This document shows positions 4,501 to 36,991 of a stretch of DNA of 38,162 bases, piece after piece. Each line of letters starts with the position of its first letter. Positions within the stretch are counted from its first letter, which is position 1. The DNA is from a virus. A program made the translations under genes and the position numbers. The stretch lies in IMG/VR virus record IMGVR_UViG_3300026521_000280, positions 1 to 38,162 of that record; one strand, 5' to 3'. Below the pieces are notes generated by a model. The model did no database searches, had not been told where the DNA came from, and was given only the letters and a program-made list of their open reading frames with translations.

Positions 4501-4738
4501 AGGAGATAAACACGCCATTGAAAGTCATTTAACAAGTGAAGTGCTAGGGTATGCTGTTAAAAATGGTAAAAAGGCTACAATAAAAACTTATGTAAAAAAA
4601 CACCCATCAGTTAGAAATGACTACTTAGATTGTAACGATATGATAGTAGCTCAGATCTTGGCTCACGGAACATACAAAGAAGTTAAAAAAGAGCTAGTAG
4701 AATATGATGCTAGAGAGTTAAAGGCTTTATTGAGTTGA
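1586..4738 (+). CDS. Terminase large subunit, GpA family, with in-frame intein
   Basis: 1050 aa precursor; about 702 aa remain after removal of residues 76-423, the usual size for the lambda gpA family. Extein marks: the ATP-binding loop ASQTQK / TTLSLG at the intein site, acidic Walker B VFDEVAEMP, a paired-Cys zinc-ribbon-like region (CIHC ... CPHC), nuclease motif GVDLQKDRLYYTVGA, and a C-terminal His/Asp region. It cuts and translocates concatemeric DNA into the prohead through the portal. ATG codons at 1586 and 1589 are both possible starts, inside the 3' end of terS. Packaging depends on protein splicing because the intein splits the ATPase loop. Confidence 0.93.
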   Translation: MMVGKLFGEITIKTLNWKKKIQARKWFAENIELTKGKTRGMFDENKAPHTKLILELIGLRGLNVISLKVASQTQKGHPLDTKIPTLNGFKTVEELESGDILFDENGKKCRLISKSEIFTKNLYRVWFDDGSFVDCSDDHLWTVNERKKRGRKKHTYTTLELIKKNIKMSNGASRFSIPLTKPVSFSSKTFDIDPYVLGLWLGDGSKNSNVITIDKLDLELLDYINNTKHTAKVGIFDKNSRAVSIRIDGKETKDRSFISDLKKNNLYENKHIPEKYFWGSINQRISLLQGLLDSDGSVRRCGSITISQSNKTVIMDISRLLKTLGIKHSVKPKERIPKLNGVDMSTTYTLEFTIYKEQFNAFRLKRKLAVQNTLTNPKNRAYQVIHRYIHKIESIPTVKSQCLMVDSQSHLYLCTDNFIPTHNTTLSLGTLMYWLDTDYHDMFYMIPRANDLKKFLEYKIKPAIDGCKTVKEKMLDYNQEEKDRKNSFFYKTRTSMLAILSANDTKSITTKYGVFDEVAEMPVQVVDEALERFKDYGDDYKVLMVSTQMTESDAINHYFENSEIKLRYELRCIHCNELFYPMPNDLKIMSEDEYLAEIGKKELSKGEISSKYTPYASSKAYLQCPHCEAKITNKDKTEAIMNGLCDWVMYEIDSVDEYDTPTYKTIKTIKTAKDLPPNITTIGLEANSMINPRVHIKHFARKELNNRYASFVNQKENNHKYMVGWWNILPKEENKEEIKPSEVLKICNNYAFGVVPDNISHLHIGVDLQKDRLYYTVGAVEYSEEDKYGIKLHIIEYGELYSNFSNQDFIDLEEILDKKYHDKDGNMFTVTSGGCDIRGFDQNDPSSRSSQMLDFIFNYSLKLKSFGLANWDNFLYPMWGVDRYSRQELQTQGFKREKLTREIDGEKITINALSFSNLKIKTLQHSMIERAILKSNTTDKDELKKLKTNLLHITKEALIRWQDRQSLPVNQRGDKHAIESHLTSEVLGYAVKNGKKATIKTYVKKHPSVRNDYLDCNDMIVAQILAHGTYKEVKKELVEYDARELKALLS
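1811..2854 (+). mobile_element. Class 3-type intein with LAGLIDADG endonuclease, in the TerL P-loop
   Basis: About 348 aa, precursor residues 76-423. N-terminal block A is GHPLDTKIPTLNGFKTVEEL; the first residue is Gly (or His77), not Cys/Ser/Thr. Block B reads CSDDHLWTV with Trp141 two residues after the His. The endonuclease motifs are LGLWLGDG (Asp203) and LLQGLLDSDG (Asp295). Block F is CLMVDSQSHLYL with Cys402. Block G is IPTHN followed by Thr424. Trp-B, Cys-F and Thr-G form the WCT triplet that defines class 3 inteins, which splice through an internal Cys branch. The exact N-junction (Lys75/Gly76 or Gly76/His77) is uncertain. The active-site and endonuclease residues all look intact. 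Confidence 0.88.
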
Positions 4739-5290
4739 TTATATTTTAAGCAACTGTTTGTTGTGGTTATATTTCTTTTGTTAGATTAGAGCTTGAAGTT
4801 TTGACATAGTTAGCCTAAAAAGACTAAACTATTTCTTCCGTTGAGTTATCACTCTCGTAAGCCACACCTCTACTAAAAAACATACAAAAGTAGAGAAAGG
4901 ATAATAACTTAGATGGACGGTCTGCCTTATCCACCTTAAATATAAAAGTTGTATCAATGATTTTATATCAAAGTAAGGTTATTATATTCTATCCTCGTTA
5001 GCTGAAATCAGACGGCATATGCTACCAAGTGGTAGTATGTTTGCTCACTTTTTCGCTTATGGGTATTTTCTTGCCCAACCCAATCGTGGTTCAGGGACTA
5101 ATTTGGTTAAAGCAGTAAGTATCTGCTACAATAAATATAACAATAAAAAAATAAAGGGTTGGATACAGGTGCGAATTGTATCCATTATAGCCTTTTAGTG
5201 ATACGATTAAATGGGAGGTAGCCGAGCGACTACCTATTACAATTCGCACCCCTAAAAAGCTATAAAAGAATTATATAGTGATTATGCTTA
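4739..5290. ncRNA. Candidate large structured non-coding RNA
   Basis: No credible plus-strand gene for about 890 bp after terL, unusual in this compact genome. The first 530 bp hold many stems: TAGTTAG/CTAAACTA near 4807; GAGT-tatc-ACTC at 4843; CTCTACT/AGTAGAG (4868-4874/4889-4895); GGATAA/TTATCC (4899/4927); ACCTTA + ATATAAAA / TTTTATAT + TAAGGT (4933-4979); CATA..CTACC-aagt-GGTAG-TATG (5016-5039); TGGGTA/TGCCCA (5060/5072); CCAACCC/GGGTTGG (5075-5081/5156-5162); AGCAG/CTGCT (5111/5123); plus the knot at 5161-5264. TTGACA..TAAACT near 4801-4830 is a possible plus promoter. Size and ornateness recall large phage RNAs such as GOLLD and ROOL, but I cannot match it to a known class. The transcribed strand is unknown. 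Confidence 0.5.
5161..5264. ncRNA. Loop-to-tail pseudoknot module
   Basis: Hairpin GGATACA (5161-5167) / TGTATCC (5177-5183) has a 9-nt loop GGTGCGAAT whose full complement ATTCGCACC occurs at 5242-5250. A second long helix, TATAGCCTTTTAG (5186-5198) with CTAAAAAGCTATA (5252-5264), crosses the first. A small hairpin AGGTAG-ccgagcga-CTACCT (5216-5235) lies inside. The single mismatch in the long helix is C-A on plus but G-U on minus, which mildly favours a minus-strand RNA. The crossed topology resembles the units at 36.3-36.6 kb. Confidence 0.5.
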
Positions 5291-34315: not shown

Positions 34316-34351
34316 AAAGTATCATTTTTTACCCACAAAGTACGATACTTT
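34316..34351. repeat. Palindromic repeats between helicase and KilA-N genes
   Basis: AAAGTATC (34316-34323) is inverted at GATACTTT (34344-34351), and a second compact palindrome AAAGTA-CGA-TACTTT occupies 34337-34351, ending at the KilA-N stop codon. No clear T-tract. Could be an operator or weak terminator. Confidence 0.4.
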
Positions 34352-34992
34352 TATTTAATTTCTTGTTTTGCTTTTTTAATAGCTAACTCTATTGCCTGAT
34401 TAGTATCTTTTATTATGTCTGCTAGTAGAGAAATGTAATCGTGAATTTTATCTCTCAATATTAACTGTTGCTCCGTCGCACTATTCCACTCCGACACACC
34501 ACACTCTAATTTTATACGCTTTGCTACAATCTGTATATTTTTATTAAAATCTTTTTTGTTTTTTGCGTGTATAAACAATGCTCCACACATCTTTTTATAG
34601 CTATCCCCACTATCATTTCTAAATTTCAAAAGATTATCAAGTAGCCACTCGTAAACTTCAACTTTTAAATTAGGGTCTATCCAAAGGGCTATATCTAAAA
34701 ACAATAAAGGGTGGACCCAAGTTATAGTTTTATCTTCAGACCCCCTATTTGATGGCTTCCTTCCTCTCCCTGAAGTTTTAATCTTTCCATATTTCTCTTT
34801 TAAAGTATTCATAAAGTCTTTAGTAGAAGATGAATTAAAATAAACATTCAAAGATGTTGGCTCTAATCCGTTCATTACTCTGAATTTATTCCCAGCTCTC
34901 ATTAGGTCGGTCGCACTAAAAAAACCACTTTTACTTTTTTGAGATATTACTTCTCCTAGCACTATTCTATTTAAAACCACTTCCGTTTTCAT
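34351..34992 (-). CDS. KilA-N domain DNA-binding protein
   Basis: 213 aa. KilA-N core: GFFSATDLMRAGNKFRVMNG, SLNVYFNSSSTKDFMNTLKE, TWVHPLLFLDIALWIDPNLKVEVYEWL, the signature of this phage DNA-binding domain. The C-terminal third is helical (CGVSEWNSATEQQLILRDKI), a frequent companion. Usually a transcriptional regulator or antirepressor. A perfect 11-bp inverted repeat precedes its gene and may be its own operator. Confidence 0.88.
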   Translation of the reverse strand: MKTEVVLNRIVLGEVISQKSKSGFFSATDLMRAGNKFRVMNGLEPTSLNVYFNSSSTKDFMNTLKEKYGKIKTSGRGRKPSNRGSEDKTITWVHPLLFLDIALWIDPNLKVEVYEWLLDNLLKFRNDSGDSYKKMCGALFIHAKNKKDFNKNIQIVAKRIKLECGVSEWNSATEQQLILRDKIHDYISLLADIIKDTNQAIELAIKKAKQEIK

Positions 34993-35307: not shown

Positions 35308-36270
35308 TTATCCGAATACAAAATAATCATCTTCTGAATGGCTATCCGACTCTAATAGGTATTTCCCTATCTGTTGGATATACTGCTCTTCACTTGTTCC
35401 AACTAATAGCGAAACATACTCTACATAAGATGATTTGATTTTTTTTACAGAGTCTAAGCTTTTATCTTCTAAAAGTTCATAGGCTTCCAAATTATCCTCA
35501 GTCTCACGGACTTTTGATATAAACTTTTTTAGCCCATTTTTTATCAACTCATCTTTTACTAGCTTACTAAAGAGTTTATAATCAATCTCTTTATGGCTAC
35601 TATCGCACAGAATAGCCCCTTTTTTGCTCTTTTTAGCTCTTGGGGGTATATCGGCTAGGGTTGATGTGTTTTGTGGCTCATTTTGGCTTTGTGGCACACA
35701 TATACTATCTTCTTTACTCAATATATCTTTTGGACTTTCAATATCTTTGTTAGAAGTTTCAATATCCTCTAGTTGCTGTTTAGGGGTAAACCCTATTTGT
35801 TCTTTAACATCTTTTGGACTTACAGAGTCTTTTATTTGCTTATTAGGGGTATCAAACTCATTATGCGTTTTATTATATGAGTTTATTATATGTTGTTTAT
35901 TATCTGTACTATATACATAGTTATTTTCGTATTGTTCCGATGGTGATTTTTCTTTACTATCGGTGATTACTTTGTTTGTGTGTCGGTAATAGTTCGTTTT
36001 ATCCCACTTATTTGACTCATTAAGCCCCTTTTCTACGACTATAAAACCTGCCTCTTTTAACACTTTGATTGCTCTTTTGATAGTATTTAATTTCATATAC
36101 GGAAATAGCTCCTGCCAAGCATTATAAGTGTTGTATGTCCAAAAATATCCATTGATAAAGTTTTGATTGTTTGCCCTGTTCTTATCTACCCAAAAACAAA
36201 TATTTTGATAGATAATCGCGGCTTCAATTCCTACTTCTTTTGCCATCTCTGTATCAAATATGTGTGTCAT
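35308..36270 (-). CDS. Replication initiator / helicase-loader-type protein
   Basis: 320 aa. Residues about 1-100 form the winged-helix domain seen in phage replication proteins of low-GC Gram-negatives: FDTEMAKEVGIEAAIIYQNI, GYFWTYNTYNAWQELFPYMK, TIKRAIKVLKEAGFIV. A long Ser/Asn/Lys-rich linker follows, then a C-terminal helical domain (DYKLFSKLVKDELIKNGLKK, DnaD-like position). Probably binds the origin and loads the DnaB-type helicase encoded downstream. Preceded by the tandem kissing-loop RNA units. Confidence 0.75.
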   Translation of the reverse strand: MTHIFDTEMAKEVGIEAAIIYQNICFWVDKNRANNQNFINGYFWTYNTYNAWQELFPYMKLNTIKRAIKVLKEAGFIVVEKGLNESNKWDKTNYYRHTNKVITDSKEKSPSEQYENNYVYSTDNKQHIINSYNKTHNEFDTPNKQIKDSVSPKDVKEQIGFTPKQQLEDIETSNKDIESPKDILSKEDSICVPQSQNEPQNTSTLADIPPRAKKSKKGAILCDSSHKEIDYKLFSKLVKDELIKNGLKKFISKVRETEDNLEAYELLEDKSLDSVKKIKSSYVEYVSLLVGTSEEQYIQQIGKYLLESDSHSEDDYFVFG

Positions 36271-36300
36271 TTTAATCTCAGGTTCTTAAAATTGATATTC

Positions 36301-36412
36301 TTTAAAGTGTGAGTAATATTTGAAGTTCCCAAGCTTCATTTATTTAAAACACTTTAAAAAGCTATACAACTATACAATAAATAGGTGCTTGGGAAACCTT
36401 TGTTGATATAGC
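36301..36412. ncRNA. Kissing-loop RNA unit 1 upstream of the replication initiator
   Basis: Outer stem TTTAAAGTGT (36301-36310) / ACACTTTAAA (36349-36358) encloses hairpin TGAAG-TTCCCAAG-CTTCA (36321-36338). Second stem GCTATACAAC (36361-36370) / GTTG-A-TATAGC (36402-36412) encloses hairpin AGGT-GCTTGGGAA-ACCT (36383-36399). The loops TTCCCAAGC and GCTTGGGAA are perfectly complementary over 9 nt. It lies 31 bp before the initiator ATG on the minus strand. A copy with compensatory changes is unit 2. Confidence 0.78.
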
Positions 36413-36486
36413 CGTATAACTTATTAAAATGCTCACTTATAACACTTGTATTAGCCTAATGCCATCACTTCCTTTGATAATTAATT

Positions 36487-36588
36487 AAAGTGTGAGTATA
36501 TATGGAAAGTTGCTAAGCTTTACTATATTAAAACACATTTCCAAGAGCAGTATAGCAGGTGCTTAGCAAAACCTTCTGTCTGCTCTTG
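36487..36588. ncRNA. Kissing-loop RNA unit 2 (diverged copy)
   Basis: Same layout as unit 1: AAAGTGT (36487) pairs with ACAC-A-TTT (36533-36540, one bulge), enclosing AAAG-TTGCTAAG-CTTT (36506-36521). CAAGAGCAG (36542-36550) pairs with CTGCTCTTG (36580-36588), enclosing AGGT-GCTTAGCAAA-ACCT (36557-36574). Loops TTGCTAAGC and GCTTAGCAA are again complementary over 9 nt although bases differ from unit 1 at two paired positions. The second stem has changed throughout yet still pairs, so selection is on the structure. Confidence 0.78.
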
Positions 36589-36697
36589 ATAATATGTTTA
36601 AAACTAATATGAATTATACCAAACCCCCCTGAAGATGGGCTAAACCCCTATGTTTTTTTATAGTTACAATATAAGTTTTATTAAAGTTATATTGAAT
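36589..36697. other. Short gene-free stretch
   Basis: AT-rich; no open frame and no repeat stood out. It separates the RNA units from the small gene at 36698-36991 and may contain the promoter of whichever RNA is made on the minus strand, but I saw no convincing box. Confidence 0.3.
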
Positions 36698-36991
36698 TTA
36701 GAAAAAATAATAATAGTTTTTTTGGTGGTTGTGTAAAATACTCATAATTTTCCCATAGGTTTCTTTAAATTTGTTTATCTTTATAGATGAGTGTATGTTT
36801 TTTTTATTCACATAAACCCATAAGCAGCTCTCTCCGACACCAATGTCGGTGACATAGAAAATCTTCAAAAATTGATTTAAATCAAGAAAAATATATGTAG
36901 ATTTTAATACAATACAGTTCCCCAACACCCCTTTGTTAGTAGATATACTCAAGAGTTCCTTTTTGTTTATAAGTTGGGGAATATCAATCAC
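36698..36991 (-). CDS. Hypothetical 97-aa protein with structured leader
   Basis: GTG start at 36991, protein MIDIPQLINKKELLSISTNK... mixed helix and strand, C-terminus rich in Tyr/Phe. No family recognised. The start lies 8 bp below the hairpin at 37000-37027, whose 3' arm includes AGGGGT; AGAGGT may be the ribosome site. It precedes the kissing-loop RNA units and the initiator gene in the same direction, so a role in replication control is possible. Confidence 0.45.
   Translation of the reverse strand: MIDIPQLINKKELLSISTNKGVLGNCIVLKSTYIFLDLNQFLKIFYVTDIGVGESCLWVYVNKKNIHSSIKINKFKETYGKIMSILHNHQKNYYYFF

Follow-up and report, generated by a model that had tools for sequence, protein, structure and literature searches.

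In the window, that is, the whole 38,162-nt stretch of the viral record IMGVR_UViG_3300026521_000280, a replication initiation gene (rep) is encoded on the minus strand, and two copies of a structured leader unit lie directly upstream of it, the tandem element spanning about 36268-36597 (Table 1). The first-pass annotation had described loop-loop pairing in front of a replication gene, and the identity of that gene is confirmed by its match to phrog_11233. The two units are separated by a start-to-start distance of 183-184 nt, in agreement with the earlier estimate of about 185 nt. In each unit, the two loops are exact 9-nt complements, as had been claimed, namely TTCCCAAGC/GCTTGGGAA (36326-36334 and 36387-36395) in unit 1 and TTGCTAAGC/GCTTAGCAA (36510-36518 and 36561-36569) in unit 2. 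The second stem, which had been noted as almost wholly changed between the copies yet still pairing, is re-paired as described. Of the proposed four-helix layout, the stems and loops are correct, but a further helix of approximately 5-8 bp adjoining the loop pair, here called J:J', had been missed. Furthermore, the tandem units are orthogonal, the L1-J segment pairing with its own J'-L2 segment at -19.0 and -18.4 kcal/mol and with that of the other unit at -9.0 and -9.4 kcal/mol. Two additional features belong to the surroundings of the leader. The rep gene contains iteron-like repeats at 35725-35832 (ATCTTTTGGACTTTCAATATC and variants), which could mark a lambda-O-style origin inside the initiator gene, and an antirepressor-type gene for a KilA-N domain protein (34351-34992, minus strand) follows rep in the same orientation.

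Table 1. Coordinates of the tandem leader and the adjoining gene in the window.
Feature	Position	Strand	Remark
Candidate leader promoter -10 box (TATAAT), ahead of unit 2	36613-36618	-	Sequence match only
Leader unit 2, upstream copy: P1 5' end to start of 4-codon ORF	36463-36597	-	Model E 3e-18, training member
Unit 2 P1 5' strand	36574-36597	-	
Unit 2 loop L1 (UUGCUAAGC)	36561-36569	-	Within small AGGU/ACCU hairpin
Unit 2 segment J, then P1 3' strand	36534-36557	-	
Unit 2 segment J'	36520-36530	-	Partner: J or P2 3' strand
Unit 2 loop L2 (GCUUAGCAA)	36510-36518	-	Complement of L1
Unit 2 P2 3' strand and conserved ACUCACACU	36489-36510	-	
Mini-ORF AUG GCA UUA GGC UAA (ATGGCATTAGGCTAA)	36451-36465	-	4 codons, predicted; good AAAGGAAG before; between units
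Possible extended -10 (TG-T-TATAAG) just ahead of unit 1	36436-36441	-	Weak
Leader unit 1: P1 5' end to rep start codon	36268-36432	-	Model E 4e-21, training member
Unit 1 P1 5' strand	36400-36432	-	
Unit 1 loop L1 (UUCCCAAGC)	36387-36395	-	
Unit 1 segment J (UAUUUAU), then P1 3' strand	36350-36383	-	
Unit 1 segment J'	36336-36346	-	
Unit 1 loop L2 (GCUUGGGAA)	36326-36334	-	Complement of L1
Unit 1 P2 3' strand and conserved ACUCACACU	36306-36326	-	
Conserved linker, structure to rep AUG	36271-36305	-	35 nt (31-39 nt in other gene-linked units)
Replication initiation gene behind the leader	35308-36270	-	320 aa, phrog_11233, E 9e-29

Ten further units were found in ten phage contigs, giving a family of 12 units with the window pair. 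A DNA pattern of the L2 loop matched 59 viral stretches, among which only L005 and L024 had a complementary L1 and the full anatomy; patterns lacking one or both loops gave L121, L160, L162, L172, L175, L180, and L183, and a final pattern scan yielded no additional unit. Most matches of the pattern scans were chance matches and were discarded when the second loop was absent. A covariance model (R1) built from the 11 units then available matched each parent record strongly once but the window twice, and the tandem arrangement is seen in the window alone. Applied to seven further phage records, R1 detected the twelfth unit in OP947165.1 (Thiohalocapsa phage LS06-2018-MD03, E 9.5e-6), which constitutes an out-of-sample test because this record was absent from the training set. 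The helices of this unit are re-paired with sequences of their own, including a P1 of approximately 22 bp at the base, a P1a helix CGGU/ACCG, L1:L2 UCCAAGC/GCUUGGA, and J:J' CAACC/GGUUG. The covariance-model check suggested by the first-pass annotation therefore returned a new member, and its claim of a selected RNA structure is borne out by homologues and covariation in ten other phage contigs. In L012, a possible shorter variant was observed at 4686-4807 on the minus strand (R1 E 3e-4; L1 UUCUAAGC, L2 GCUUAGAA), in which a P1-like stem is followed by seven U residues and the next gene is an HNH-like nuclease; this variant may use transcription termination.

Other searches gave no relatives within their scope. 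The best match of R1 over ten Helicobacter and Campylobacter phage records had an E of 0.13. BLASTN with the window region and the L024 leader returned no phage or plasmid homologues, apart from one unrelated 30-nt match, and the sole match of the L121 leader was 28 nt of an inovirus. A protein search with the window Rep among viral contigs found no relatives, and a scan of a genome collection found no true unit, which says little on prophages because the single narrow pattern used fits only 4 of the 12 units. Among the units scanned against Rfam 15, none scored above the gathering score, the only matches being of miRNA/snoRNA type far below the cut-off, and C4 (RF01695) was not matched at E<=5 (window) or E<=10 (further scans). 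The earlier remark that no described phage element of such a shape is known is consistent with this lack of a credible Rfam match. Judged by their sequences, the units are members of an undescribed phage leader RNA family, separate from C4.

Read on the gene side, each unit begins with the P1 5' strand, followed by a small AGGU-L1-ACCU hairpin in the P1 loop, segment J, the P1 3' strand, a GUG-UUUUA block, segment J', AA(A/G), and L2. After L2 come the P2 3' strand, the conserved ACUCACACU, the linker, and the AUG. In permutation tests, partners were swapped among 11 units, and the tests were repeated with 12. P1 paired with its own partner at -22.9 kcal/mol versus -8.5 when swapped, and J:J' at -8.4 versus -2.2; L1:L2 and P2 each favored their own partner as well (p<5e-5 in every case, with 11 units and again with 12). 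For the composite L1-J with J'-L2, the own pairing reached -22.4 versus -12.8 kcal/mol and ranked first in 11/11 units (p<5e-5). Candidate acceptance involved the complementarity of the loops, and the L1:L2 statistics are therefore partly circular, both in the permutation test and on the MAFFT alignment, where 100% of cells are paired, 10 cells are doubly changed, and the covariation score of 0.355 compares with 0.132 in shuffles (0/500 shuffles as high). P1, J:J', and P2 played no part in acceptance, and their statistics are not circular. P1, L1:L2, and J:J' thus re-pair across the units despite changed sequence, and a scan of all segment pairs yields mainly the P1, L1:L2, J:J', and P2 helices. 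A closing helix P0 between the base of the P1 5' strand and the ACUCACACU block is not secure, with p 0.001 among approximately 78 segment pairs. Three further ideas were dropped: a shared small ORF within P1, which is not conserved; CsrA binding through GGA in L2, since GGA is absent from L121, L160, L162, and window unit 2; and P1 as an intrinsic terminator in the main family, since only UUUUA follows.

Segment J' covaries with two partners, J and the P2 3' strand. As the J:J' and J':P2 pairings are mutually exclusive, the leader has two alternative folds, and the conservation of both partners of J' is the main evidence for a two-state switch. The competing energies are close, at -8.4 kcal/mol for J:J' and -6.5 kcal/mol for the inner part of P2 on the gene-side strand. 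P1 and P2 moreover share a GUG, which lies at the base of P1 and within the basal AAGUGU/ACACUU pairing of P2, and the two choices would thereby be coupled. Because the base pairing is so well preserved, the RNA is probably an on/off switch for phage early genes.

The strand of the RNA can be judged from several properties. The structure points toward the next gene in all 12 units. The AUG follows ACACU after 35-39 nt in 10/11 units, with a UUG after 31 nt in OP947165.1; window unit 2 is the exception, with 23 nt ahead of the 4-codon ORF. In P1, the non-Watson-Crick cells on the minus strand are mostly wobble pairs (21 G.U versus 10 A.C). Orientation and spacing in the 12 units, together with this wobble pattern, point to the minus strand and thus to the rep leader. 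P2 shows the opposite trend (5 G.U versus 16 A.C on the minus strand) and is stronger on the opposite strand (-13.2 versus -9.7 kcal/mol on the minus strand); its weakness on the gene-side strand may reflect the balance of a switch. On the whole, a minus-strand 5' leader of rep is the most likely identity of the RNA, even though P2 by itself prefers the other strand. In addition, -10-like boxes are enriched upstream on the gene-side strand (p 0.01), although only 5/11 units have a perfect TATAAT in the 35 nt preceding P1.

The first genes behind the leaders encode replication initiators, antirepressors (AntA, Rha/KilAC, ORF6C), nucleases, or unknown proteins. A replication initiation gene follows the leader in L183, as it follows unit 1 in the window. 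Antirepressor genes follow the units in L160 (AntA and ORF6C), L162 (Rha and KilAC), and L175 (ORF6C and anti-repressor families), but not in the window itself, and the gene in L005 resembles Rha/Ant weakly. Nuclease-type genes are represented by T5orf172/MUG113 in L024, GIY-YIG in L172, and HNH in L180, whereas L121 has a 17-codon ORF in a replication gene cluster and OP947165.1 has a hypothetical gene in a primase/helicase region. The first genes of L005 (2374-3156) and L024 (5854-6390), from different phages, have the N-terminus M(T/N)ELIKL in common, and the leader and first codons may travel together. As to hosts, the helicases of the window and L121 match only phages of Helicobacter hosts, and the ThyX of the L024 contig matches mostly Campylobacter phages; OP947165.1 carries Thiohalocapsa in its name.

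On this basis, we consider it reasonably probable that the units are cis-acting leader switches of phage early operons, forming an undescribed family, and that those of the window act on the minus strand into rep. The homology of the units, their orientation, the start-codon spacing, and the covariation of P1, L1:L2, J:J', and P2 are read from the sequences; from these, we infer transcription and expression as the controlled step. A minus-strand transcript would start at the candidate promoter just upstream of unit 2 and run into the initiator gene. Its long hairpin P1 would bear the small hairpin with L1 in its loop, and L1 with the adjoining J would pair with the downstream J'-L2 to form a kissing or pseudoknot fold; alternatively, J' would find a local partner in the P2 3' strand, excluding J. 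The winning fold would set the access of the ribosome (or RNA polymerase) to the gene that opens the early operon, one fold favoring and the other hindering its expression; against this reading, neither fold visibly hides the ribosome-binding site. The controlled gene would be the replication initiator in the window and an antirepressor or other early gene elsewhere. The arrangement of two orthogonal units one after the other, separated by a 4-codon ORF, is compatible with a RepZ-like coupling. A more far-reaching version, offered tentatively, is that the family is a mobile two-state RNA switch, mostly in phages of Campylobacterota, which would sense either a signal or a co-infecting phage's partner RNA via the variable loop and J sequences and be placed as a module before early genes to decide between lysis, lysogeny, and replication. 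In this version, the tandem of the window would be a two-input form with orthogonal codes.

Other readings of the same structures have to be weighed against the cis-acting switch. In an immunity RNA of c4/CI type, processing of the leader would release a small RNA that acts in trans. Its L2 would pair with the ribosome-binding region of the operon, a region that partly copies L1, in its own phage or in one that superinfects, and the loop sequence would set the immunity type. The kinds of target gene are those of P1 c4 (ant) and P4 CI RNA (replication), and the loop sequences diversify between phages. A variable triplet is common to L1 and the AUG-proximal region in L005 (CCC), L121 (GUC), and L160 (CUC), UUCCAA adjoins AAAGG in OP947165.1, and L2 against the AUG-proximal 30 nt gives p 0.02 (12 units). 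However, p is 0.07 for L2 alone without window unit 2 and 0.23-0.50 for the whole J'-L2 segment, and C4 of Rfam is not matched at E<=5-10. We regard this reading as rather unlikely. The c4-like third pairing with the ribosome-binding region (p 0.02-0.50 by segment and units) is only suggestive. Somewhat less credence is given to a ligand- or protein-sensing, riboswitch-like element, in which the blocks GUG-UUUUA and ACUCACACU around the two exclusive folds would bind a signal. The covariation of J' with two partners, the near-invariant blocks flanking the switch, and the same module before several kinds of gene agree with such an element, but the downstream genes have no common metabolic theme and the conserved blocks may serve just the alternative pairing GUGU/ACAC.

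An improbable reading places the function on the opposite strand, where a counter-transcribed antisense RNA would control the rep or antirepressor leader, as RNAI/Inc does in IncI plasmids, and the fold would be that of the antisense RNA. Both window units fold better than dinucleotide shuffles on either strand, but more clearly so on the plus (z -4.4 and -5.6) than on the minus (z -2.1 and -1.7), and the wobble pairs of P2 are standard mostly on the plus strand. Against this, P1 favors the minus strand, the enrichment of -10-like boxes lies on the gene side, and a constant spacing to the AUG belongs to the gene side too; within 36150-36760, no terminator-like sites were found, and promoter-like matches for an antisense transcript were near chance level. 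It is very improbable that the units act as DNA, serving as an operator or origin whose inverted repeats a phage repressor or initiator would bind. The position upstream of rep would suit such a role, inverted repeats would covary between strands too, and the wobble evidence is partly strand-ambiguous. Nevertheless, several different helices, including a pseudoknotted one, keep their pairing although the sequence has changed completely, which leaves no common binding site beyond short conserved blocks, while orientation and AUG spacing are fixed and P1 tolerates mostly the G.U pairs of one strand.

A few enterobacterial elements, namely c4, CI RNA, IsrK, and RepZ, are known to control antirepressor or replication operons through RNA, and the present family resembles them in its position and its probable manner of action. 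The c4 antisense RNA of phages P1/P7 (RF01695) lies in the leader of an antirepressor operon, contains complementary segments, and controls ant. In P1, c4 is a trans-acting RNA that represses Ant (PMC8546580). The present family likewise includes leader RNAs of antirepressor operons (L160, L162, and L175) with complementary segments, but its L1 and L2 pair mutually inside the leader, the pairing to the ribosome-binding region is weak, and RF01695 is not matched. The CI RNA of satellite phage P4, which controls the replication operon, lies between seqA and seqC in its leader and pairs with both (PMC4825925). Complementary segments around an RNA module in a replication-operon leader are also present here, with a clear upstream partner (L1-J), whereas a seqC-like downstream partner is only suggestive and the module consists of a long hairpin and a pseudoknot. 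In Gifsy-1, IsrK-orf45-anrP has a structured leader with alternative helices and a small ORF before an antirepressor gene (PMC4825925). The family, judged by description, resembles it in its structured leaders before antirepressor genes, its alternative helices, and its small ORF, but IsrK has a Rho-independent terminator, and none was found in 36150-36760.

In IncI/IncB plasmids, RepZ (RepA) is preceded by a leader pseudoknot (PMC8383071, PMC10286972). The L1:L2 and J:J' loop-loop pseudoknot upstream of the initiator gene, with the mini-ORF between unit 2 and unit 1, fits the earlier proposal of IncI/IncB-type replication control, which thus stands as a fair working analogy. The plasmid system is defined by an antisense RNA, a coupled leader peptide, and translation activated by the pseudoknot, and neither an antisense promoter nor an antisense RNA was found for the window leader. 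Its restriction to replication does not hold, because antirepressor, nuclease, and unknown genes follow the units too, and the other members before antirepressors and nucleases are without a leader peptide. The purine riboswitch fold likewise consists of two hairpins with kissing loops. The family has two such hairpins and possibly a closing helix (the weakly supported P0), but it has no Rfam match. Early-gene control in these poorly studied phages becomes approachable, since a defined, testable switch of two helices that compete for a single strand is available together with a model that has already found a new member, and the variable loop and J codes might explain immunity groups too. Compared with the enterobacterial elements, the family looks like an unrelated solution in phages of Helicobacter/Campylobacter relatives, in which one fold is placed before different genes.
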